Numbered from the stretch's first letter, positions 50,358 through 62,598 are shown. The stretch: DNA of 64,000 nucleotides from Methanotrichaceae archaeon (GCA_013178225.1 JABLXE010000003.1:124001-188000), one strand, 5' to 3'. Numbers and translations are program-made. Notes: generated by a model not told the origin, from the sequence alone.

Positions 50358-50610
50358 GCTTTCGCACAAGATCTGCCTTGGCCAGCGGCTCAGGATTTTA
50401 TAATCCCAATAGTCTCCTATCTCAGCTAAGATCGTTTAGGCTGAACCATCCCGGTGCCGGAGCGGACCTGAGAATCTTGAATTCCATAGGCTATGACGTT
50501 ATTCTGGGACGGATTCTCAGTCCAACTCTTCAAATGCGCAAATCTTGAGCGGGCTTATTATCTGCAGTGAGCAATCATTTGAAATATCTTGCCTTATATC
50601 TACCGGTTTT

Positions 50611-51267
50611 ATGCTGCTGCTCGGCGCGGATGAGGCGGGAAAGGGCCCGGTTATAGGCTCTATGTTCGTTGCCGGACTGGTGATAGATGAAGAGACGCTC
50701 TTCGACCTGGCCGCCCTGGGAGTCAGGGACTCAAAGCAGATTTCGCCGGGCCAGCCGCAGGCCAGGAGGCAGGCAGAGAGGGATATTCTATCCCGCAAGA
50801 TCAAGGCCCTCTCGAAAGATCACTTCATCCTGGAGGTTCAGCCGCAAGTAATCGATGAGCTGCGAGGGGTGATGACCATGAACGACATCATGGTCAGATG
50901 CTTTTCGCAGGTGGTGGCAAGGCTTAACGCGGACCGGGCCATCCTGGACGCAGCCGATGTAAACCCGCAGCGGTTCGCCGAGCGGGTGAAGGATGCAAGC
51001 GCCACTTCGATGGAAATTGTTGCCGAGCATAAAGCCGATCAGCGCCACCTGGTAGTATCGGCAGCCTCTATTCTGGCCAAGTCCAGACGCGATCAGTCCA
51101 TCCGGGAACTGGAGGCTTCCATCTCTTGCAAAATAGGAAGCGGCTACCCCAGCGATCCCCAGACCATCGAATTTCTGAAGAACTGGATGAGAGAGCATAA
51201 CCAGCTGCCGCCCTTTGCCAGACACAGCTGGGCTACGGCACAGCGTATAAAAGCTAGTTTTATATAG
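50611..51267 (+). CDS. rnhB: Ribonuclease HII
   Basis: This enzyme cleaves RNA in RNA-DNA hybrids. The ~218-residue protein begins LLLGADEAGKGPVIGSM, whose DEAG holds the first catalytic acids. GVRDSKQISP, ADRAILDAADVN and VVSAASILAKSRRD follow, with the remaining acids. I placed the start at ATG 50611; the longer frame from 50545 adds 22 non-conserved residues. No ribosome site precedes this ATG and a TATATC word lies just upstream, so the mRNA may have little or no leader. Confidence 0.94.
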   Translation: MLLLGADEAGKGPVIGSMFVAGLVIDEETLFDLAALGVRDSKQISPGQPQARRQAERDILSRKIKALSKDHFILEVQPQVIDELRGVMTMNDIMVRCFSQVVARLNADRAILDAADVNPQRFAERVKDASATSMEIVAEHKADQRHLVVSAASILAKSRRDQSIRELEASISCKIGSGYPSDPQTIEFLKNWMREHNQLPPFARHSWATAQRIKASFI

Positions 51268-51313
51268 ATCTCCCTGCGGTTAAGAGTTACCAAGAAGACT
51301 CGAAGGGATTTGA

Positions 51314-52459
51314 TTGGACAACGAAGATACCTTGCTCATGATTCCGGGACCGGTCAAGGTAGCGCCGCGTGTGCTGCGTGCCATGTCTCGCCCCATGATC
51401 AGCCACAGAAGCGCAGAGTTCGGAGCCATCTACGACGACTGCCGCGCTCTTCTGGGAGAATTTTTCGAAACCCGCAACGAAGTTGTGATAATGACCGGGA
51501 GCGGCACCGTGGGAATGGATGCTGCTGTTGGAAGCGTGATCGGGCCCAGCGACAAGATAGTGACCATCTCCAACGGCAAGTTCGGAGAGAGGTTCACAGA
51601 GATCGGAGAGAGATATGGACAAGCCGTATCCGTCCCCTTTGAATGGGGAACTCCATTCGATCTGGAAAAGGTAAAGGCCGCTCTGGAAGATGGAGCCCGG
51701 GCAGTGGCCATGGTGCACAACGAAACATCAGTCGGCCTCACCAACCCGGCCAAAGAGGTAGGAAAGCTGGCCAGAAAGCACGACGCGATCTTCATCGTGG
51801 ACGGCATATCCTCCATAGGCGGAAACGAGTTCCTGACCGACGAGTGGAATATTGATATCGCCATCACCGGCTCTCAGAAGGCCCTGGCGGTCCCACCGGG
51901 CCTGGCAGTGGTGGCGGTCTCCTCCCGGGCCGAGGAGCGGTTCCGGGACAAGAGCGCCAGCTACTACGCCGACCTCAAAGGGCACATGAAGAGCGCGAGA
52001 AAAAGTCCCACCCAGACGCCTTACACTCCGGCGGTTCCGCTCTTCTTTGCCCTGCAGGAAGCGCTTCACATGGCCCATGAGGAGGGCTTTGCGGCTCGGA
52101 GGGCCAGGACAACCAGGCAGGCGGAAGCGGTTCGTGCGGCCGCGGCGGCTCTGGGAATTGAGCTCTTCCCCAGGGTGAACGAGCACTCCCATTATTCCAA
52201 CACCGTCACGGCCATGAAGATGCCGGAGGGCGTCAGCGACGATCACCTTCGCGGCGGCATGAAGAAGCAGGGAATCGTGGTCTCCGGCGGCCAGGAGAAG
52301 CTCAAGGGCAAGATCTTCAGGATCGGCACCATGGGCGTGTGCTCATCTGGAGATATTCTGCGCACCATCCAAACTCTCGAACTGGTGCTGGATAAGGAAG
52401 GAAAGCTCCTAGATCGCGGCGCAGGCGTGAAGGCGGCCGGCCAGGCGCTGGGGATTTAG
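51314..52459 (+). CDS. Class V PLP aminotransferase (alanine/serine-glyoxylate type)
   Basis: This 381-residue enzyme has MIPGPVKVAPRVLRAM at the start, then TGSGTVGMDAAVGS, MVHNETSVGLTNP, FIVDGISSIGGNEF and TGSQKALAVPPGLAV, where the lysine of SQK binds PLP. It resembles archaeal serine-pyruvate/alanine-glyoxylate aminotransferases. The substrate in this organism is not determined. The start is TTG 51314 with GGGAT upstream. It ends with a small hairpin (GCTGCC/GGCAGC, 52465-52486) followed by a T-run. Confidence 0.88.
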   Translation: MDNEDTLLMIPGPVKVAPRVLRAMSRPMISHRSAEFGAIYDDCRALLGEFFETRNEVVIMTGSGTVGMDAAVGSVIGPSDKIVTISNGKFGERFTEIGERYGQAVSVPFEWGTPFDLEKVKAALEDGARAVAMVHNETSVGLTNPAKEVGKLARKHDAIFIVDGISSIGGNEFLTDEWNIDIAITGSQKALAVPPGLAVVAVSSRAEERFRDKSASYYADLKGHMKSARKSPTQTPYTPAVPLFFALQEALHMAHEEGFAARRARTTRQAEAVRAAAAALGIELFPRVNEHSHYSNTVTAMKMPEGVSDDHLRGGMKKQGIVVSGGQEKLKGKIFRIGTMGVCSSGDILRTIQTLELVLDKEGKLLDRGAGVKAAGQALGI

Positions 52460-52645: not shown

Positions 52646-54595
52646 ATGAAATTCGGCCTGGCTGCGTTGCACCTCTTGGTTCTGATCTTCATTCTGATAG
52701 CTCCGGCTCTCTCGGCGGACGCTTCGGCCAGCTTCGAGCAGGCAGGCTCAAATAAAGAGCCGTTCGATGTTGACGGCACCATCGACTATAAGATCGCCAT
52801 AAATAATGACATAGGTTCCATAATGCGTTACGAGATAGAGCTCTTTGTCGGCCCCGATAAGTCCGACTTCTCAATATATAATAAATACACAGATTATTTA
52901 AATATCAACGCCCGAGCTCTTGGCAGCGCCACCTTTCCCGTGAACTTTCGCTCGCCGGAGATGGTCAGAGGGGATTTCGGGAGATGGACCGGCGATGACA
53001 ATGAGACAGGAATTTGGGACAAAGCCTGGTACCGGGTGGTGATAACTCCATTGGTTGGAAGACAGATGACGATCGAAGGCTATGGCGGCCATCCCAATCT
53101 TATTAAGAATTTCTTCGAATTCAAGGGTGCCAGTGTCAGTCCCACCGAGGGAAGCAGCGATGACCTCTACTCCTATGAGACGTCAATTATTGGAAGCTAT
53201 GAAGACGAGATAACGCTGCAGACGGCACCATCTGCCCAGGGACCCTGGACCGACGCCGGATCCAGATCGTACGACAGTCCCGGCCTGCTGCAGACCCTCA
53301 GATGGGAAAACGTCACATTGGATTTCGATTTCAGCATGGCCTATTACCGTTTCAAGGGCACGAAGCAGTCTGGGATTTATGAAGGCCCGTTCTGGCCGGT
53401 GGCCATGAATGCGAGGAACAGCCAGGTAAATCCGGTCAGAGGACTGTCCAGCCAGCGGTTTGACTATTCGCTGGAAGTCAACTCATCCAAGAAAATTGAC
53501 GCGGTTTTGAACGTTCTGGATGTGGCAAGCAAGACCTTCAAACCCATGGGCAGGGCTAGCTACAAGAACTCGTCCCAGTGGCAGACCATGACCTGGCCGG
53601 GAATCTCTCCATCCGAAGTCTCGGGAAGCGAGGGCAGTTCCAGCTATTTCTTCACCTTCTATTATCCCGGCGGAGAGACGCCCTTTAACAGGACCGAACA
53701 ATTTGCCGGGCCGGATATCGTGCTGGTCAACTTCAGGAATGCAACTGTGTCTCCGAACAACGGTTCGATTTTCCTGCCCTTCAACTACAGCGTAGAACTG
53801 GAAACCGCGCTTCCACGCTGTGATGTTGAGCTGCAGACCAGTGATCCGGGCTCAACCCTGTGGGTGTCGAGGGGAATTGTGAGCTACAACGGCTCACAAA
53901 GAACGCTCTACTGGAATAACACCAATCTGGACGGCAGCTCCGACGGCATGGCCAGATACAGGTTCCTGGCTGGAGCTTCAGCATCGGATGAGTACCAGGG
54001 CCCGAGAATTGGAACCGTCAGCATCTCAGCGACAGTTCTGCCTTACAACGGGTCGCTGTACATAACCGAACCCATCTCTGAGATCAGCGGCGTGTATTCC
54101 TACAACTATAAGGCTCAGGTGCATGACTTCCGCAGCGACCGTCCGCTGACAATAGGTCTAGAGATATTAGATCCGGTGACCAACTTCTGGATCGGAGCCG
54201 GAAGCCAGAATTACGAGCCGGGACAAAGCTGGCTCAATTTCAGCGTTAACTTCGCCCGGCTCTCATTCCAGGGGCCGTTCCTCGGGACCACAAAATACAG
54301 ATTCACTTCGGAGGGCCGGATTATAAATGAATCCTCGGGGCCCAATATCGTGGTGAATTTCAGGAACGAATCACTGGAGAGGCTCTCCGATGGCAACTAT
54401 AAATACAGAGTCGAAGTGCGCTCATCGCGCTCACCACTTCCGGTCTACATCTTCTATACCAATGACGGCAAGAACTGGCACCGCTCTGTAAACCGGCAGC
54501 AATATGACGGCAATGGGGATTGGCAGGAGCTGGAATGGGCAAAAGAGCCTCATTATCAGAAGCTGGAATTCATAGCAGACATCGGAGGGAGCTGA
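52646..54595 (+). CDS. Exported multi-domain beta-sandwich protein, first gene of tubulin-like operon
   Basis: This 649-residue protein has a signal peptide (residues 1-24, ending APALS). At least four related ~100-residue beta-rich domains follow, each with a 'sense VSP-x-x-GS ... W ... Y ... L-x-W' pattern (FKGASVSPTEGSS, NATVSPNNGSIF, SATVLPYNGSLY). There are many N-x-S/T sequons and no membrane anchor. It begins an operon whose genes overlap by one to four bases and whose last product is a tubulin/FtsZ-type GTPase. It is probably a cell-surface component. Family not recognised. Confidence 0.82.
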   Translation: MKFGLAALHLLVLIFILIAPALSADASASFEQAGSNKEPFDVDGTIDYKIAINNDIGSIMRYEIELFVGPDKSDFSIYNKYTDYLNINARALGSATFPVNFRSPEMVRGDFGRWTGDDNETGIWDKAWYRVVITPLVGRQMTIEGYGGHPNLIKNFFEFKGASVSPTEGSSDDLYSYETSIIGSYEDEITLQTAPSAQGPWTDAGSRSYDSPGLLQTLRWENVTLDFDFSMAYYRFKGTKQSGIYEGPFWPVAMNARNSQVNPVRGLSSQRFDYSLEVNSSKKIDAVLNVLDVASKTFKPMGRASYKNSSQWQTMTWPGISPSEVSGSEGSSSYFFTFYYPGGETPFNRTEQFAGPDIVLVNFRNATVSPNNGSIFLPFNYSVELETALPRCDVELQTSDPGSTLWVSRGIVSYNGSQRTLYWNNTNLDGSSDGMARYRFLAGASASDEYQGPRIGTVSISATVLPYNGSLYITEPISEISGVYSYNYKAQVHDFRSDRPLTIGLEILDPVTNFWIGAGSQNYEPGQSWLNFSVNFARLSFQGPFLGTTKYRFTSEGRIINESSGPNIVVNFRNESLERLSDGNYKYRVEVRSSRSPLPVYIFYTNDGKNWHRSVNRQQYDGNGDWQELEWAKEPHYQKLEFIADIGGS

Positions 54596-55983
54596 TGAAG
54601 CGCCTCTTCGCCCTGCTAATTATCACATCCCTGGCCCTCTCGGCCACTGCCTGGGGAGGCCTGGTCCCAGGCGAAGGCCCGGCGCAGACCGCGACCTCCA
54701 GCAGCGGAGGAGGCGGAAGCAGCCATAAGCAGATCGACCTGGACAAGATACTCAAGGCCCTGGAAGAAGGCAAGAAGAAGAAGCCGGACAAGTTCGAGCA
54801 GGTGAAGAAGCTCCTCTACATCGAGCCGTTCTCCACCCAGGAATACGACAGAAATTTCAGCCTCGGCCTATCCATATCCGGCAACGACACCATCAGCAGA
54901 AAGGAACAGGTGAAAGTCACGGCGCTGGTGAATAATCCCAATCCCATTGAGATTCGAAGAGCCCTCTTCCTTTATCTGGACGTTCTTCTGCCGGGAAATG
55001 GCGAATTTGAACAGGTCAATTCGGTGCCGCAGATAATTCAAGTAAATGAGTATGTAATCGACGACGATGGAAATAATATCACCGCCAGGGTTTTTCCTGA
55101 GCTAACCTCTTTCAGCGATCTGAAAGAAGTAGGGCCGGTGACAATGAGGCTTCGAGTAAGCGACGGCCAGTACAACTGGCACTCGTTGAACAAGACCCTT
55201 AACCTGACCAATAGCGCGCCCTATCTGGAGAACGTAACTCTGCTGGCACCTGACGATGCGAGATACAACGACGTCATAACCTACTCAGCAGATGTTCAGG
55301 ATCTGGACCAGGATATGACAAACATAACTCTGCACATTCTCGAGGATGGTGGACGGGAGACGGCCAATGTCACTCAGATTGTGCCGTCCGGAAACAGAGT
55401 TGAGTTCCTGGCCAATCAATACGGGCTGTTCTCCAAGGAGGACGCCGGCAGAAACTTCTCGTATTATTATACCTTTGGGGATGGAATTGCTGCCGGCAAT
55501 ACTTCCATCATGAAAGGACCAAGCCTCAGGAAGGCAGTGGCCATCTGGGTTGACAATCCCCGTGTCACTGCCGAAGAAGAGAATCAGTTCTGGTGGCAGA
55601 GATATAACTTCAGTCTGGATATGAAAAACCAGAATCCTGGAGAGGCCAACGTTCAGGTAACGCTATTCACAGATACCCCATCCCATCCATGGAGGGCTGT
55701 AGCCTCCAAGGAAGTCGTTCTGACGGAAGACCCCCAGGTGGTCTATTTCGATGTGGCTCCCTTCGACGTTCAGGATGCCAATCAGAGCTTCAGGTATCGA
55801 TTCGATTACTCCGAGTACGACCAGCTGCAACAGGCCAGCCGGGAAGCGAGCTGGCCAAGGCCGTTAGCTGCCAAGCTCGTCAGGTATGAGATGGTAACCG
55901 TGCCGGGCTTCGGAAATATAGTCCTGATTCTCATGCTTTCGCTTCTGGCCGGAATCATGATAGAGAGGAGGTTTTACCGGTGA
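54595..55983 (+). CDS. Exported protein with PGF-CTERM-like C-terminal anchor
   Basis: This ~462-residue protein has a signal peptide (MKRLFALLIITSLALSATAW) and a Gly/Ser-rich linker. A helical lysine-rich part follows (LDKILKALEEGKKKKPDKFE), then beta-rich domains with many N-glycosylation sequons. The tail reads VPGFGNIVLILMLSLLAGIM then ERRFYR. That is the tripartite PGF motif, hydrophobic helix and basic end of archaeosortase substrates. The start at ATG 54595 overlaps the previous stop by one base (TGATG) and GGAGGGA precedes it. It may be lipid-linked at the cell surface. Confidence 0.83.
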   Translation: MKRLFALLIITSLALSATAWGGLVPGEGPAQTATSSSGGGGSSHKQIDLDKILKALEEGKKKKPDKFEQVKKLLYIEPFSTQEYDRNFSLGLSISGNDTISRKEQVKVTALVNNPNPIEIRRALFLYLDVLLPGNGEFEQVNSVPQIIQVNEYVIDDDGNNITARVFPELTSFSDLKEVGPVTMRLRVSDGQYNWHSLNKTLNLTNSAPYLENVTLLAPDDARYNDVITYSADVQDLDQDMTNITLHILEDGGRETANVTQIVPSGNRVEFLANQYGLFSKEDAGRNFSYYYTFGDGIAAGNTSIMKGPSLRKAVAIWVDNPRVTAEEENQFWWQRYNFSLDMKNQNPGEANVQVTLFTDTPSHPWRAVASKEVVLTEDPQVVYFDVAPFDVQDANQSFRYRFDYSEYDQLQQASREASWPRPLAAKLVRYEMVTVPGFGNIVLILMLSLLAGIMIERRFYR

Positions 55984-56564
55984 GACACGAGATCATCCTT
56001 CTGGCGTTGCTCCTTTTCATCCTGGCGCTGGGACTTAGCCTGCACAGGGTTTATTTGGGCCGGATCAAAGCCAGGGTTATGGAAACGGCCGGTAGCGATT
56101 TTGGCGAAGAGGACCTGAAAAGCATCTTGCACATGCCTCAGGGCTCCAATTTCAACACCGCAATGCTCTCCTGCTGGTCTCTCTATTTTGTGGCCCTGGT
56201 CTTCCTGTATTTTCTGACTCCGCAGATATTTCCCAGCTGGAACTACTTCCGCCTGTCAACAGTTGCCTCGAGCTACTTCGGCCCCATCATCCTGGCATCA
56301 GGAACGGTGGTTATCACAGGCGCTGCAGCGTTCAATATTCCGAAGATATACAGATACTATGAAATCGGAAAGGATCAGAAGGAGATGATGGTAATCCTCG
56401 TGCCCGTATTGCTGCTGATCTCTCTGGCCTGTTCCCTTTATACCGGCATCATCTACCCCGATACGAACATTTCATTCTGGAATCTGGGGTATGCCGCCCT
56501 GTTTTTAGGTCAGATGCTCCTTTTGCTACCGGTCTTCTCAGGATTTGCTGGAGGGATGAGATGA
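55980..56564 (+). CDS. Integral membrane protein of the tubulin-like operon
   Basis: This 194-residue protein has about five hydrophobic helices (residues ~4-24, 64-86, 95-120, 130-150 and 165-190), with charged cytosolic loops including ETAGSDFGEEDLKSILHM. It starts with GTG inside a GTGA overlap with the previous gene, after AGGAGG. Its stop overlaps the next ATG by four bases. It could tie the cytosolic tubulin-like protein to the membrane, which is inference from gene order. No known family is recognised. Confidence 0.78.
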   Translation: MRHEIILLALLLFILALGLSLHRVYLGRIKARVMETAGSDFGEEDLKSILHMPQGSNFNTAMLSCWSLYFVALVFLYFLTPQIFPSWNYFRLSTVASSYFGPIILASGTVVITGAAAFNIPKIYRYYEIGKDQKEMMVILVPVLLLISLACSLYTGIIYPDTNISFWNLGYAALFLGQMLLLLPVFSGFAGGMR

Positions 56565-58261
56565 GGCCGTGCATTGTGGGAATTGGGGGAGCCGGAGGCA
56601 ATATCTTAAGGCAATTTCTGCAGTGCCGGGATGCTGAGCTGGCAGGATTCTCTTTCGGGGAACACCTGACCTTCGGGGAGGTTAAAGGCTTGTGGCTGGA
56701 GTCAGCGGCTCACGATGTGCAAGACCAGAGATTTTACGGAAAGCTGACTTCTGGACTGTACCCCGGATATGTTATCTGCCATGACTCAATAAACGCAGAC
56801 TCTCCGACCCGCAAATATGTAATGGATGTGTACGGTTTTGATCTCAAGATTCAGGGGTACGACAGGCGGGCCGAGTATCTTAAAGGGATCTTTGAGGTAT
56901 TCGATGCAGACCCCGAGCTTCAGAGGATTGCCGTAGACGAGTTTTCGGGCGAGGGAAATCCCCTGGCAGGATTCATCTGGAAGAGCGGCATCCGGCCTTA
57001 CACCACAATATCCGAATACAACCAGCATTGCGAGGCCAGGCCGCCAGATGCGGACAATCTGCTCGGAATGCTGAGATTTCCCAATTCATCTAAGGAGAAA
57101 AACGGCAAGGACAATTCCGCTAAGGGCTGTGACAGCATCCTATTCATCGCTTCGCTAGGTGGCGGAACCGGCACCGGCTTCATAAATCCGATTGCCAGCT
57201 ACGTGAGATCTGAGGAGCTGGGCTTTCCTATTTTTGCCCTGGGAGTCCTGACCGAAAAGGGAACGGACTCAAGAGGAGCACCGGAAGGCCAGAGGGATTT
57301 GGGAGCAGTGATCGCCATGAACGATCTCCTGACCCTGGGTGCCGGAAAAGGCATAGATGGCCTCATAATGATCGACAATCAGGTTCTTCTGCAAAAGTAT
57401 AAGGGCAATTTTCCGGCCATGGACAGGGAGATTTGCAGCGCCTTGCGGCCTTTGCTGGATCCCAGGGACTATCCGGGCTCTGAGCAGCAGAAAGATATGC
57501 TGGCCATGAGGAGGGTCATCTGGAAGGCAGATCGAACCAATGGAAACCACGAAAATGGAAAGACCATCCTTCTGCCGCCTTTGCTGGTCCCGTGTTACCA
57601 CTTCCGCAATGGATCAAAGGGTTCTATCGATTCCCTGGTAAAAGAAGCACTGAGCGCAAATGGCAGGTTGTTCCCCTGCGACCCTACCAGGGCCGACCGG
57701 GCTTATGTCTTCACCAGAGGTTTCTTTAAAAAAGAAGATATAAAAGCGGCTGTTGCCGGCGCGCTGCAGATGGATTCCAAGGAAGCGGAAGAGAAGGTAC
57801 ATGTGTACCGTAAGATAGGAAACGGCAGCCAGGATATTCTTATCGTGCTCAGGAATCCCTACGGAGGCACATCCAGAGGCCAGGCAGGGGATGATCTCAA
57901 ACAGAGGATATACGATGTCGTATCAAATGCAATTGGCTATCTGGACGAAAATCCTACCAACATCATGGGATCAATGGGATATAGCGAACTGACCAAAGAT
58001 CGCCTTTTCGAATATTTCTATGGCAGTAGAGGCCTTCGAGAGGAGCTTGTCCGCTGTCAGGAGCGGCTGATGAAAGGGGAGAGGCCGGCATTCGTGAGGT
58101 CAATTGAAATATTTGATGAAGTCTCCGGAGGGCAGGCGGGTAAGGGCGGCGAGATCGGGCGCATGGAGCAGAGCGAGATGGAGAAGCTGATTGAGCTGGA
58201 GCTGGAAAGGCTTTTGCATTCGGAGAAATTCAGGAAGAAGATCAGAGAGATGATGGCGTAG
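56561..58261 (+). CDS. Divergent tubulin/FtsZ-superfamily GTPase-like protein
   Basis: This 566-residue protein has GIGGAGGNI (7-15) at the N-terminus. The tubulin/FtsZ signature loop SLGGGTGTGF lies at 198-207. A following strand-helix, GIDGLIMIDNQVLLQKYKGN, resembles the FtsZ nucleotide-base region. In FtsZ the signature loop lies near residue 105, so an insertion of about 90 residues sits in the first half. This fits the tubulin-like (Tubulin_2/FtsZl1) group better than FtsZ or CetZ, but the assignment is tentative. The C-terminus ends in a charged helical tail. Last gene of the coupled operon; GGAGGG precedes the ATG. Confidence 0.75.
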   Translation: MRPCIVGIGGAGGNILRQFLQCRDAELAGFSFGEHLTFGEVKGLWLESAAHDVQDQRFYGKLTSGLYPGYVICHDSINADSPTRKYVMDVYGFDLKIQGYDRRAEYLKGIFEVFDADPELQRIAVDEFSGEGNPLAGFIWKSGIRPYTTISEYNQHCEARPPDADNLLGMLRFPNSSKEKNGKDNSAKGCDSILFIASLGGGTGTGFINPIASYVRSEELGFPIFALGVLTEKGTDSRGAPEGQRDLGAVIAMNDLLTLGAGKGIDGLIMIDNQVLLQKYKGNFPAMDREICSALRPLLDPRDYPGSEQQKDMLAMRRVIWKADRTNGNHENGKTILLPPLLVPCYHFRNGSKGSIDSLVKEALSANGRLFPCDPTRADRAYVFTRGFFKKEDIKAAVAGALQMDSKEAEEKVHVYRKIGNGSQDILIVLRNPYGGTSRGQAGDDLKQRIYDVVSNAIGYLDENPTNIMGSMGYSELTKDRLFEYFYGSRGLREELVRCQERLMKGERPAFVRSIEIFDEVSGGQAGKGGEIGRMEQSEMEKLIELELERLLHSEKFRKKIREMMA

Positions 58262-58340: not shown

Positions 58341-59642
58341 TTAAATTGATCTGCCGGAAGACAGATCTATTTTTCCTTCCGGCAGTCCAATTGAGCCATT
58401 GTATCCAGTCATCCATTGGTATCTAACCTCAGAGATAGGCGTATTGTTTGCAATAACATACTCCAGCTCTGTTCTATTGGTAGATACCTCAATTGGCAGA
58501 TTAAGCAGCAGTCTTGCAGAAATCCGGCTGGTCCAGGTTTCACTGCCGTTCATGGTGCCAATATACCATCGCAGTGTTGTTGTGTTGTCAGAGGGATTGA
58601 TTTTCACATTGACGGGAGTTCCTTCGTTGTTGCTAGAACCCAGATATCTTAGATACGGATATAGAGTGTCGGTTACTTCCACATCATAGGCAACAGGTCT
58701 GGATTTGAGCTTTTCAAGTATAGAATCTATTGCTGTGCTCAAATCTTCGATATTCTCCAACGGAATCGGATCTCTCTTGGGCTGACCTGAGATCTGCGTT
58801 GCTCTCGATATCATCGATAGGTTCTGGTATTGCCATTTAAATAAGCTGGAATTGATTCCGATCCGCACAGTATATATCTGATATCCGTTAAAGTTCGAGG
58901 TGGTGTTATAACTGCGGCTCTTGGCAGCGTTAGCTAATTGCTTCGCTAAAGTTGACTCGCCTGATGCATTCCTAGGCTCAGCTGCGAATTCGCTTAACCC
59001 TGTCAAAAATATTATAATCCTGGCAGTATTATAAGGATCGACAGGAGGATTGTCATCTAATGCCTCCACCGCCCTTTTTACGCCTATGGAGTAAATTGTA
59101 TGATCGGTTTCAAGAGATTCGTTGGACAGATTATTCAATATGCCTTCAATTTTTGTCCTATTGGTTTCTACATCAATGAAATCCGATTTTGTATCACCCA
59201 TTTCGTAATCATCATCCCAGCTAACAACCGATACCCTAGCCTCAGGGTAATGGGCGATAATTGATGATAATATCCCCCCGGCCCAATCAATATATCGTTT
59301 GCCATCGATATCTTCGCCTTGGAAGTGCTGAACCATACTGCCTGAAGTATCCATAGCCAATACAATATCTAGTTGGGCGGGCTTGGGCGGCATCTCTAGA
59401 GCAATCTGAAATTCTAGAGAATTCTCTGCGCTAGACGGACTCAGACTTTTCGTCACCCGGATACCCGTTTGATCAGTTCCACTTCCTCCAACAATTGATG
59501 AGGGGAGAACTATATAGCCATAATCAGCATGCGATTCAATAAAATTGTCTTCCGATACAATGATGCCTTCTGCGCATGCTGTCCCGCACGACAGCACCAA
59601 CTGAAATCCAAGTAAAAATATCAATGCATTGGAATTAATCAT
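58341..59642 (-). CDS. Exported von Willebrand factor A domain protein
   Basis: This 433-residue protein has a signal peptide (residues 1-24, ending GTACA). A vWA domain with a complete MIDAS start follows (AMDTSGSM, Asp98), then an acidic SWDDDYEMGD. A C-terminal beta domain contains DTLYPYLRYL and NTTTLRWYIG. The same DTLYPYLR and DTTTL blocks recur in the neighbouring 799-residue protein, so the two are paralogous over this half. No membrane anchor is seen. Its ATG overlaps the stop of the four-helix membrane protein by four bases. Confidence 0.88.
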   Translation of the reverse strand: MINSNALIFLLGFQLVLSCGTACAEGIIVSEDNFIESHADYGYIVLPSSIVGGSGTDQTGIRVTKSLSPSSAENSLEFQIALEMPPKPAQLDIVLAMDTSGSMVQHFQGEDIDGKRYIDWAGGILSSIIAHYPEARVSVVSWDDDYEMGDTKSDFIDVETNRTKIEGILNNLSNESLETDHTIYSIGVKRAVEALDDNPPVDPYNTARIIIFLTGLSEFAAEPRNASGESTLAKQLANAAKSRSYNTTSNFNGYQIYTVRIGINSSLFKWQYQNLSMISRATQISGQPKRDPIPLENIEDLSTAIDSILEKLKSRPVAYDVEVTDTLYPYLRYLGSSNNEGTPVNVKINPSDNTTTLRWYIGTMNGSETWTSRISARLLLNLPIEVSTNRTELEYVIANNTPISEVRYQWMTGYNGSIGLPEGKIDLSSGRSI

Positions 59643-60172
59643 TGGAGTTCACCACTGGAATTGCTGAAAGAGCGAAAGAAGTTTTTTATTTTTGTGACAA
59701 TCTTTCCAATGATAATCTGGAATAAATCCGTGCCAAGTAAAATATTTAACAATAAAAGAGAGGCGAGCCAAATCAATACAGTCCACCTCAGGGCTTCTGC
59801 CTCCGCTCCACGTAATGATGCTACACTGGAAAAATTGTACCAGATAAAAGCCAATATCAGACAAATTGAAAGTGTCCCAATGAGATAGAATACCAGCCTG
59901 CTATTGTACCGCCAATGAGGGAAAATATAATTAAATACAGAAAATAAAATTTTAGGTATTGTGTAAAATATAACCATAAATAAGACAATTATCAATAGTT
60001 CAATCCTGTCGAAATAAAAATTATGATCTTCGATATATCCATTTATATCGGATAGAGAAGATGCAAAGACATACGCAATCAAGAATCCAATAAGGACCAT
60101 AAAGATACTCACTAACATGTCTTTGCATGTAGGATTGCACTCGGCCAATGTTTTATCGTCTTTTTTGCTCAT
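59639..60172 (-). CDS. Four-helix integral membrane protein between vWA genes
   Basis: This 177-residue protein has four hydrophobic segments (~residues 20-40, 60-80, 92-112 and 128-150) and short charged ends. Its N-terminus has two cysteines in ECNPTCKD on the probable cytosolic side. It lies 26 bp after the 799-residue vWA gene and overlaps the 433-residue vWA gene by four bases, so all three are one operon. Function is unknown; it may anchor the exported vWA proteins. Confidence 0.8.
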   Translation of the reverse strand: MSKKDDKTLAECNPTCKDMLVSIFMVLIGFLIAYVFASSLSDINGYIEDHNFYFDRIELLIIVLFMVIFYTIPKILFSVFNYIFPHWRYNSRLVFYLIGTLSICLILAFIWYNFSSVASLRGAEAEALRWTVLIWLASLLLLNILLGTDLFQIIIGKIVTKIKNFFRSFSNSSGELQ

Positions 60173-60198
60173 GGCACATCCCTTGTAATCTTCATTCT

Positions 60199-62598
60199 CT
60201 AGAGCGTCTCAAGAACTAGGCTGCTTTCAGGCAGAGGAATGCTGTACCTTATACCATTGCCAAGCCAATCGTAGCTAACAGATGAATTAGGTGTGCTCAC
60301 GCCGAGATGATACGATTTCGATCTCCTCAAAATGGTTACATCAACCGGCAAGGATAAATCTAAATATGTATCAAATGAGATTTCTATGTAATCTGACGGT
60401 TTTAGGGCCACCTTTCCATCAATATCTACCTGCAATGTTGTTGTATCATCGGAATTGATATGCACAATTCTATTCGCAGATTTATTGTCTAATATCTGTC
60501 CATTGATCTTGGCGACAATTGATTGGTTATCAATCCTTAAATAAGGATAAAGCGTATCTACAACCAGTATATTATTGGAAATATTCTCCTTGAAAAATTG
60601 CTTTAGAGCATCATCCACTGCCGTAGAAGCAGCTGCTCTATTGAAGTTCGAGCTTCCAGGAGAATAATGATATTTGGATGCATTTCTTCCCAAGGGATTT
60701 TCTTGAGACATTACGTTCTTATCTCCCGCAATTTTATTTAGTTCATGGTACAGCATAGAATCGTTAATAACGCCAATTCCAATAGTATGAATATCACAAT
60801 GTTCGTTCTTCGCTTTAATAATCATGGATTCATCGCAGGGCTCAAATTCACTTCTGGCAGTAATGAATAGAATCAGCTTTCGAGTTCCATCAAGGTTATT
60901 CTTTTTGGTATTGTTCAATATTTCCCTAGCGGCATCAAGGCCAACGCTCAGATTTGTTGATTCGGTCTCGAGGCAAATGTAGTAATCGTCTTTTGTTGAT
61001 GCATTGTCATATACAATATTGATTCCCCCGGACTGAATCAAGTCAATAATATAACCTATTACAGTATCAATCCAATTGGGATCAGATCCAAACATTCCCA
61101 ACTGCTCTACTTCATTCCTTACCGAGGATATCGGCATCATCTTAGACGATGAGATGTCATTATTATTTACAGGAGGGTATACAAAATCGATATCGTCATC
61201 CCAACTCAAGATTGAGACATTGCTCGAACTCAAATTGGCTTCAATTTTTTCCAGGATCTTCGGAATTGATTGTCTTACGTTTTCTCCATATTCTGCCCTT
61301 CCCCCCATGCCCAGACTTCCAGAGCTATCCACAGCAATGACCACACCAGTCTTGATCTCCTCCACTGGCGGAGCAGAGAGTCGTAATGTGATATGCGGGC
61401 CCGAAGATCCTGAGGCTACTATCTTAGTAATTTTCATTTTAGTATTTATCGATTTTCGAGTTATATTGCTCCCCAATGCATAAAATTGTAAATTTTTTGC
61501 TGGAGCATACTGATGATGGACGGGTTTTATTGCATTATCTATTGGAATATCTATTGGATCTATTGGAGTGGGCTTAATAACATCTACACTCCCCATTGAG
61601 ATATTGTCCTCATATTCTCTGCCATCAGATCCAGTGTATTCAATTTTCGACTGATTGTCAGGTGTAAGATACAGCGTCTTGGCTACTTCCGAGCCGACTT
61701 TGAATGATATAGTTTTAGTCTCATTTATAGATATAGTACCTAAGTTCCAAGAGATAGTAGTCGATCCATTGCTTCTTCCGAGAGGTTCGCTCGGCCTGAC
61801 ATTAGTTACTTCTGCTTGATCAGGGACGACGTATCTTAGTCGAACGTCTTTCGCTATGATATTTGGAATATTTATGCTCAGATCTTCAAAGATCTTTTCT
61901 AGCACATCATTGTCTGCGGCATAATAGGACCCGCCTGTAGTCTCTGCCATACATTTGAGATTCTTGGTCCCATTTTCCGAATCGTTAATTCCGACTGCAA
62001 AAATGATTATTCCTAGATCCCTAGCTCGAAGGGCATCTGCACAGGGATTATCGCCTTTGCAGGTTTTGTTATTGCCGTCAGATAGAAGTATTATAGTCTT
62101 GACGGAGTCACGATCACCTGAACTCAGCATATCTATTGCTTTGTTTAAACCGAGACCTAAACAGGTTATTCCGCGGCCATCATTCTTATCAATGATCGTA
62201 GCATTGATTGTATCATTGACAAGGCTGAAATTATTTACTGGTGGCATATTAGGGCCAATTGTGCTATTGAAGCTCACAAATCCGATTCGATCTCTGGAAT
62301 CGTCCATGCCGGATACGAATTTCTTTGAGGCGCCTTTGGCAGCAGCCATGTGTGATCCAAACATGCTATTTGAGGTGTCAACTACCAGAACGGCATCAAC
62401 GTCCCTTCTTGAAATGCCATTGCCTCCAGTTATATCAAGCTTTACAGTGGCAGTATCGGGATGTTCAGATCCTATGACATTAATTTTTTGAGGAGTTATT
62501 TCATCATTGATGTCCAAAAAGCTGGATTCGCTAGTTGCATATGTAATATTAATAATTAGAGAGAAAACTATAATTATAAGAGATAAATTAGAATTCAT
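60199..62598 (-). CDS. Exported protein with two von Willebrand factor A domains
   Basis: This 799-residue protein has a signal peptide (residues 1-22). The first vWA domain (~67-240) starts VVDTSNSM (Asp74) and contains LLSDGNNKTC. A DUF11-like beta domain (~250-330) and a Pro/Ile linker follow. A second vWA domain begins AVDSSGSLGMGG (Asp424) with SWDDDIDF. The C-terminal beta domain has DTLYPYLR. Both MIDAS motifs look able to bind metal. The second half is homologous to the 433-residue vWA protein. It heads the operon, and its codons are clearly AT-richer than those of most genes in the window. Confidence 0.9.
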   Translation of the reverse strand: MNSNLSLIIIVFSLIINITYATSESSFLDINDEITPQKINVIGSEHPDTATVKLDITGGNGISRRDVDAVLVVDTSNSMFGSHMAAAKGASKKFVSGMDDSRDRIGFVSFNSTIGPNMPPVNNFSLVNDTINATIIDKNDGRGITCLGLGLNKAIDMLSSGDRDSVKTIILLSDGNNKTCKGDNPCADALRARDLGIIIFAVGINDSENGTKNLKCMAETTGGSYYAADNDVLEKIFEDLSINIPNIIAKDVRLRYVVPDQAEVTNVRPSEPLGRSNGSTTISWNLGTISINETKTISFKVGSEVAKTLYLTPDNQSKIEYTGSDGREYEDNISMGSVDVIKPTPIDPIDIPIDNAIKPVHHQYAPAKNLQFYALGSNITRKSINTKMKITKIVASGSSGPHITLRLSAPPVEEIKTGVVIAVDSSGSLGMGGRAEYGENVRQSIPKILEKIEANLSSSNVSILSWDDDIDFVYPPVNNNDISSSKMMPISSVRNEVEQLGMFGSDPNWIDTVIGYIIDLIQSGGINIVYDNASTKDDYYICLETESTNLSVGLDAAREILNNTKKNNLDGTRKLILFITARSEFEPCDESMIIKAKNEHCDIHTIGIGVINDSMLYHELNKIAGDKNVMSQENPLGRNASKYHYSPGSSNFNRAAASTAVDDALKQFFKENISNNILVVDTLYPYLRIDNQSIVAKINGQILDNKSANRIVHINSDDTTTLQVDIDGKVALKPSDYIEISFDTYLDLSLPVDVTILRRSKSYHLGVSTPNSSVSYDWLGNGIRYSIPLPESSLVLETL

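Follow-up and report, generated by a model that had tools for sequence, protein, structure and literature searches.

In a stretch of 64,000 nucleotides from a Methanotrichaceae archaeon (GCA_013178225.1, JABLXE010000003.1:124001-188000), referred to as the window in its whole length, four genes on the plus strand between positions 52646 and 58261 overlap successively by 1, 4 and 4 bases (Table 1). These coordinates agree with a preliminary description of the DNA, and the coupling is kept across the loci of the family. Genes 1 and 2 encode exported proteins, gene 3 encodes an integral membrane protein, and gene 4 encodes a protein with GGAGGN and GGGTGTG loops. Our work identifies the gene 4 product as a genuine protein of the tubulin/FtsZ superfamily: a very divergent tubulin-like protein of the Methanotrichaceae that is encoded in a fixed four-gene operon and that has apparently not been described before.

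A divergent lineage of the tubulin superfamily

The assignment of gene 4 to the superfamily, already made in the preliminary description, is borne out by both sequence and structure. The protein matches PF00091 above the cut-off (37.4 bits versus 33, E 4.3e-9), the match covering only residues 185-278. A search of the PDB with a profile of 34 gene 4 relatives returned CetZ and tubulins along both the GTPase and the C-terminal domains. The AlphaFold2 model of the full-length protein, calculated from the alignment of the 34 relatives (mean pLDDT 78.8, pTM 0.82), contains all main tubulin elements, including the nucleotide-binding domain, the central helix H7, and the C-terminal domain. Disorder is predicted for residues 155-186, and the C-terminal domain is followed by only a short terminal helix without any coiled coil. 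In a Foldseek search with this model, tubulins and CetZ2 were the top matches (E about 3e-13; TMt 0.68 for CetZ2 4b45). The query-based TM-scores are moderate (0.4-0.5), as is expected because of the inserts.

The nucleotide loops are readily recognized: T1 reads GIGGAGGN, T4 reads GGGTGTG, and T6 is of the VDN type (IDNQ). The GIGG of T1 (overall pattern GIGG[ACT]G) and the GGGTGTG of T4 are invariant across the 34 relatives. An insertion of about 90 residues had been noted ahead of the signature loop. Indeed, T1 and T4 are separated by 193 residues as compared to about 108 in the CetZ of the same genome, i. e. by about 85 extra residues, but only a part of this insert is family-wide, with GGGTGTG starting anywhere from about residue 157 to 211 among the relatives. 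After H7, no acidic pair is conserved in the 34 sequences, and the usual catalytic T7 motif (NxDxxD/E) therefore seems to be missing; the loop is poorly modelled here, which makes its exact alignment uncertain. Since the acidic T7 motif can be missing from diverged proteins of the tubulin superfamily, the membership of gene 4 rests on fold and sequence. The protein may bind guanine nucleotides and polymerise.

To which branch of the superfamily does gene 4 belong? In profile-profile comparisons, the family is closest to two groups of CetZ proteins (E 3.6e-14 and 4.8e-14), followed by FtsZ (8.2e-8) and Tubulin_2 (2.6e-3). The latter match has a probability of 12% and is confined to the T4 region. 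The gene 4 protein scores 17.4 bits with the ftsZ model TIGR00065 (cut-off 295.2) and 14.6 bits with the Tubulin_2 model PF13809 (cut-off 27); when searched against the own genome, PF13809 picks a CetZ-type protein rather than gene 4. In the tree, the gene 4 family forms its own clade (support 100/100), which is separate from FtsZ and Tubulin_2 and has a stem of 3.4 changes per site. This clade lies among the CetZ lineages, with a grouping that is weakly supported (49/64) and does not resolve the exact joint. The T1 and T4 loops are FtsZ-like in their letters, whereas T6 (VDNQ-type) and the C-terminal stretch are CetZ/tubulin-like. The gene 4 family is a separate long-branch lineage nearest to CetZ and tubulin, and the profile, tree and loop evidence therefore places it in the superfamily but outside of FtsZ and FtsZl1, and probably also outside of CetZ, as they are defined.

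The comparison with the known proteins illustrates this position. With CetZ (4b45 from Haloferax, 3zid), gene 4 shares the whole-chain fold, the VDN-type T6 loop, and a C-terminal stretch that aligns (C.P..A.RA.V). However, CetZ has a GxGQxG T1 loop and an acidic T7 motif, whereas gene 4 has GIGG[ACT]G and no conserved T7 acids; moreover, gene 4 differs from CetZ by its separate long-stem clade, the GGGTGTG T4 loop, the extra helical insert, and the operon with exported proteins. The letters of T1 and T4 match those of FtsZ1 and FtsZ2, but FtsZ is a separate supported clade and has the NxDxxD motif in T7 that gene 4 lacks. The genomes tested in the family carry ordinary FtsZ genes and a separate CetZ in addition to gene 4.

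The preliminary description had suggested that the operon may be an archaeal version of FtsZl1, the family for which Makarova and Koonin predicted a role in membrane remodelling with vWA proteins. On this reading, gene 4 would act together with vWA proteins in vesicle formation. The context is similar: both systems have vWA and membrane-protein neighbours, in our case with an enrichment of vWA genes (see below), and the proteins share the GGGTGTG loop and a long insert between T1 and T4 (PF13809; PMC2875224). However, FtsZl1 proteins have a coiled coil and an alpha-helical C-terminal domain after the GTPase domain, and their T6-H7 region is not recognisable (PMC2875224). Gene 4, by contrast, has a recognisable T6-H7 region and a C-terminal tubulin domain but no coiled coil, and the vWA genes lie outside the operon. 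Together with the Tubulin_2 score below the cut-off and the weak profile match that is limited to T4, these features largely refute membership in FtsZl1/Tubulin_2, and we consider remodelling of this type to be highly doubtful. A viral origin was also rejected: no relatives of gene 4 were found in viral contigs, and the structural matches to viral tubulins reflect the fold only. The family is not described in the accessible text of two surveys of archaeal tubulins (PMC9871819, PMC9856176), but it could be hidden in an unnamed group of non-canonical proteins mentioned in the accessible part of PMC9856176.

Table 1. Genes of the operon and its surroundings in the window
Feature	Position	Strand	Description
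Gene 1	52646..54595	+	Secreted, 649 aa; signal peptide; five repeats in tandem, each of about 90-100 aa
Gene 2	54595..55983	+	Bitopic membrane protein, 463 aa
Gene 3	55980..56564	+	Integral membrane protein, 194 aa, five predicted transmembrane helices
Gene 4	56561..58261	+	Divergent tubulin-superfamily protein, 566 aa
vWA protein	58341..59642	-	Exported, 433 aa; VWA_2 E 9.5e-9; convergent, end 80 bases past gene 4
Membrane protein	59639..60172	-	177 aa; coupled to vWA genes; unrelated to gene 3
Exported protein	60199..62598	-	799 aa; at least two vWA domains (VWA E 2.2e-27, 3 stretches)
RNase HII-like gene, then aminotransferase-like gene	50545..52459	+	Flank marker; names by sequence resemblance only

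Distribution and conservation of the four-gene module

Gene 4 is almost confined to a single family: protein searches detected it in 35 of the 37 genomes of Methanotrichaceae, including the genome studied here, and in none of 24 genomes from other families of the class. With a profile search among 393 genomes of the phylum, strong matches were limited to the Methanotrichaceae and one other genome (G092); the remaining matches scored like ordinary CetZ and FtsZ. When 85,000 species were scanned, 47 loci were obtained, nearly all from Methanothrix, Methanosaeta or Methanocrinis, as well as UBA148 (labelled Methanocellaceae) and two weak bacterial matches that are limited to the T4 region. The UBA148 locus (L110) has all four genes with a convergent vWA-type protein behind them; horizontal transfer and a misbinned contig cannot be told apart as its source.

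The survey of relatives confirmed that the four genes are always adjacent wherever the sequence can be read. Of the 36 loci read, 34 contain all four genes with order and strand unchanged, and the two exceptions involve masked bases (L052) or the end of a contig (L069). Genes 3 and 4 overlap by 4 bases in 33 loci, and genes 2 and 3 do so in 24; the gap between genes 1 and 2 is a few bases at most in nearly all loci. Three genomes contain two diverged copies of the operon (G003, L044/L068; G020, L050/L065; G023, L063/L064). About 20 loci have the pair of RNase HII-like and aminotransferase-like genes ahead of the operon. In Methanothrix soehngenii GP6 (G015, recognized by its plasmid, which is 100% identical and has the same coordinates), all four genes are absent without any remnant while the flanking genes are intact: the rnhB-aminotransferase pair is kept, with unrelated genes and an ATPase operon right after it (L225, 2143000-2160000). 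Thus, the module seems to be gained and lost as one unit. Genes 2 and 4 are also missing from G006, a genome that is only 85% complete. The operon is present in genomes that resemble M. thermoacetophila PT and M. harundinacea.

This distribution bears on the idea that the module serves division or cell separation in the Methanothrix filament, with gene 4 and FtsZ coordinating septation with the deposition of sheath and spacer plugs. The operon is almost confined to a sheathed, filamentous family whose sheath-assembly and plug proteins have yet to be identified (PMC11576556), and secreted Ig-like chains as described below would suit an envelope role. On the other hand, the genomes tested retain ordinary FtsZ, the phylum-wide search sampled other sheathed lineages without detecting any strong relative, and GP6 lacks the whole module. 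M. concilii, the strain described with sheath and plugs in work that PMC11576556 cites, is presumably identical to M. soehngenii GP6. Since GP6 lacks the module, a role that is required for sheath or plug is unlikely, and a division factor in general appears unlikely as well.

Membrane and secreted partners and the vWA neighbours

The topology of the products of genes 1 to 3 was predicted with a simple hydropathy scan and the positive-inside rule rather than with SignalP. In agreement with the earlier assignment of two exported proteins and one integral membrane protein, the products of genes 1 and 2 each start with a segment resembling a signal peptide, and five hydrophobic segments were seen in that of gene 3. 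The operon may well reach the outer surface of the cell, as the preliminary description had proposed.

The gene 1 protein lacks a C-terminal membrane anchor. Its repeats were recognized by an iterated profile, and complete relatives have 4-6 homologous domains; judged from their size and composition, the repeats are probably immunoglobulin (Ig)-like. Among the relatives, the length of the protein ranges from 537 to 1460 aa. The largest versions (1200-1460 aa; e. g. in L047, L056, L064 and L066) have more, or more diverged, repeats, and a length variation of this type is typical of adhesin surface proteins.

The gene 2 protein is predicted to start with a signal peptide and N-terminal helices, to expose Ig/FnIII-like beta domains outside of the cell, and to end in a C-terminal transmembrane helix with a basic tail in the cytoplasm. 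In its structural model (pLDDT 83, pTM 0.56), Foldseek detects similarity to chains of Ig-like domains. The gene 2 profile had no sequence matches in the PDB. Glu458 next to the membrane is invariant, and the tail reads ERRFYR in many relatives but is far longer in others. The preliminary description had attributed a PGF-CTERM-like tail to one of the two exported proteins. This did not hold: no PGF-CTERM model of Pfam or NCBIfam matches gene 2 at E values up to 1, and of 30 aligned relatives only the protein from the window has the letters PGF ahead of the C-terminal helix. Anchoring of the archaeosortase type was therefore rejected, and a permanent bitopic anchor is the better reading of gene 2.

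The gene 3 protein has a conserved QGSNF...W motif after helix 1. No Pfam model matches it, and no similarity to a known transporter was seen there. Kinship with the membrane protein of 177 aa that is encoded beyond gene 4 was rejected, as the two proteins were found to be unrelated on comparison.

The properties of these partners need to be considered for another possibility, i. e. that gene 4 encodes a degenerate, non-polymerising tubulin homologue that acts as a nucleotide-dependent switch or as an assembly chaperone for the export of the co-encoded surface proteins. The lack of conserved T7 acids in the 34 sequences and the long stem branch would fit to such a protein, as would the coupling to two exported proteins and to a polytopic membrane protein that might be the export partner. 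However, T1, T4, T6, H7 and the C-terminal domain are all kept, and conservation of the whole fold is expected of a polymer. Moreover, gene 3 does not resemble a known transporter. We regard a switch or chaperone as improbable.

A link to vWA proteins had been suspected from the outset, and at the level of genomics it is real: vWA genes are enriched around the operon. They are located within 10 kb of gene 4 in 13 of 38 loci as compared to 0.9 expected, and none of 200,000 simulated sets reached 13. On average, a genome has about four PF00092 matches. The probability derived from the simulation is too optimistic because the loci are related. However, the arrangements are clearly different: the vWA genes are convergent downstream of the operon (the window, G001 and G027), co-oriented upstream (G005, G013, G019 and G025, and also G009 and G014), co-oriented downstream (G024 and, directly adjoining, the second operon copies of G020 and G023), or divergent upstream (G021). 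This diversity favours a repeated functional association over one inherited arrangement. In all these cases, the vWA genes are found beside the operon rather than inside it. The joint encoding of vWA proteins and extracellular Ig-like membrane proteins is reminiscent of the predicted secretion or surface system of the arCOG01314 type; however, that system as described involves an AAA+ ATPase and no tubulin-like protein (PMC5898192).

The convergent vWA cluster of the window (58341-62598) is not mentioned in the preliminary description; its 177-aa membrane protein has no homologue in the other loci searched. In eight loci (L041, L042, L045, L046, L048, L050, L054 and L056), genes for secreted proteins (about 220-300 aa), often arranged as tandems, lie upstream of the block formed by rnhB, the aminotransferase gene and the operon. 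These proteins have no match in Pfam or the PDB and could be candidates for amyloid-like sheath (SH) proteins. In six loci (L040, L045, L046, L050, L053 and L056), gene 4 is followed on the same strand by a further gene. Its product usually has 186-194 aa but reaches 345 and 472 aa in two loci, and the match of one copy to a papain-fold Pfam model stays below the threshold. Models of anti-phage defence do not match any of genes 1-4.

A possible assembly across the cell envelope

Our computation supports the fold of gene 4, the fixed operon, the predicted pattern of topologies, the joint absence as a unit, and the enrichment of vWA genes. It is attractive to assume that the operon encodes one trans-envelope assembly, in which the products of genes 2 and 3 couple a membrane-bound, GTP-binding scaffold to secreted proteins of the Ig-repeat and vWA types; we favour this reading tentatively, at somewhat less than an even chance. 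The gene 4 protein, a cytoplasmic tubulin fold, would bind guanine nucleotide and, at the inner membrane face, either self-assemble or serve as a scaffold, held there by the five helices of gene 3 and the cytoplasmic tail of gene 2. The latter protein would span the membrane once and expose its Ig-like domains, to which the Ig-repeat protein of gene 1 and often also the vWA proteins encoded nearby might attach on the outside. In this way, the inner scaffold could position or cluster surface proteins for adhesion or for the organisation of the envelope along the cell or filament. A physical complex, nucleotide binding, polymerisation, and a purpose in surface patterning or adhesion are inferred.

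A precedent for the attachment of a tubulin-fold polymer to the archaeal membrane by a dedicated partner is the FtsZ-SepF system. SepF is a cytoplasmic peripheral anchor, whereas the candidate anchors of gene 4 are transmembrane proteins with large domains outside. FtsZ and tubulin use the acidic T7 motif to hydrolyse GTP across the subunit interface. Since this motif is not conserved in gene 4, the assembly is probably stable, or hydrolyses the nucleotide differently, rather than being a fast dynamic filament. The more specific proposal that gene 4 represents a third archaeal tubulin lineage devoted to the envelope, forming a filament that is linked directly and specifically via genes 2 and 3 to the secreted Ig-repeat and vWA proteins and that works without conventional GTP hydrolysis, is conceivable but rather doubtful. 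It would amount to a prokaryotic linkage from cytoskeleton to surface with a logic comparable to that of adhesion complexes.

Several observations weigh against the trans-envelope assembly. First, operon coupling indicates co-expression but not contact. Second, the topology rests on hydropathy and not on a trained predictor. Third, only about one locus in three has vWA genes close to the operon, and these loci are phylogenetically non-independent. Fourth, the gene 4 protein could have lost the ability to polymerise together with its T7 acids, and the T7 region of the model itself is of low confidence (pLDDT below 50 at 305-312). Finally, M. soehngenii GP6 lives without the module.

In the literature covered, as far as its text is accessible, no fixed operon with transmembrane and secreted Ig-like proteins is described for the known archaeal proteins of the FtsZ, CetZ or Tubulin_2 type. 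A real complex of this kind would tie a cytoskeletal element to the cell surface of an acetate-using methanogen of global importance. The missing T7 motif offers a test of how far the tubulin fold can drift from GTP-driven dynamics. The operon-bearing genomes resembling M. thermoacetophila PT and M. harundinacea on the one hand, and the operon-less M. soehngenii GP6 on the other, provide a natural experiment. Any operon that is linked to the envelope and specific to this family is also a lead to the builders of the sheath and plugs of Methanothrix.

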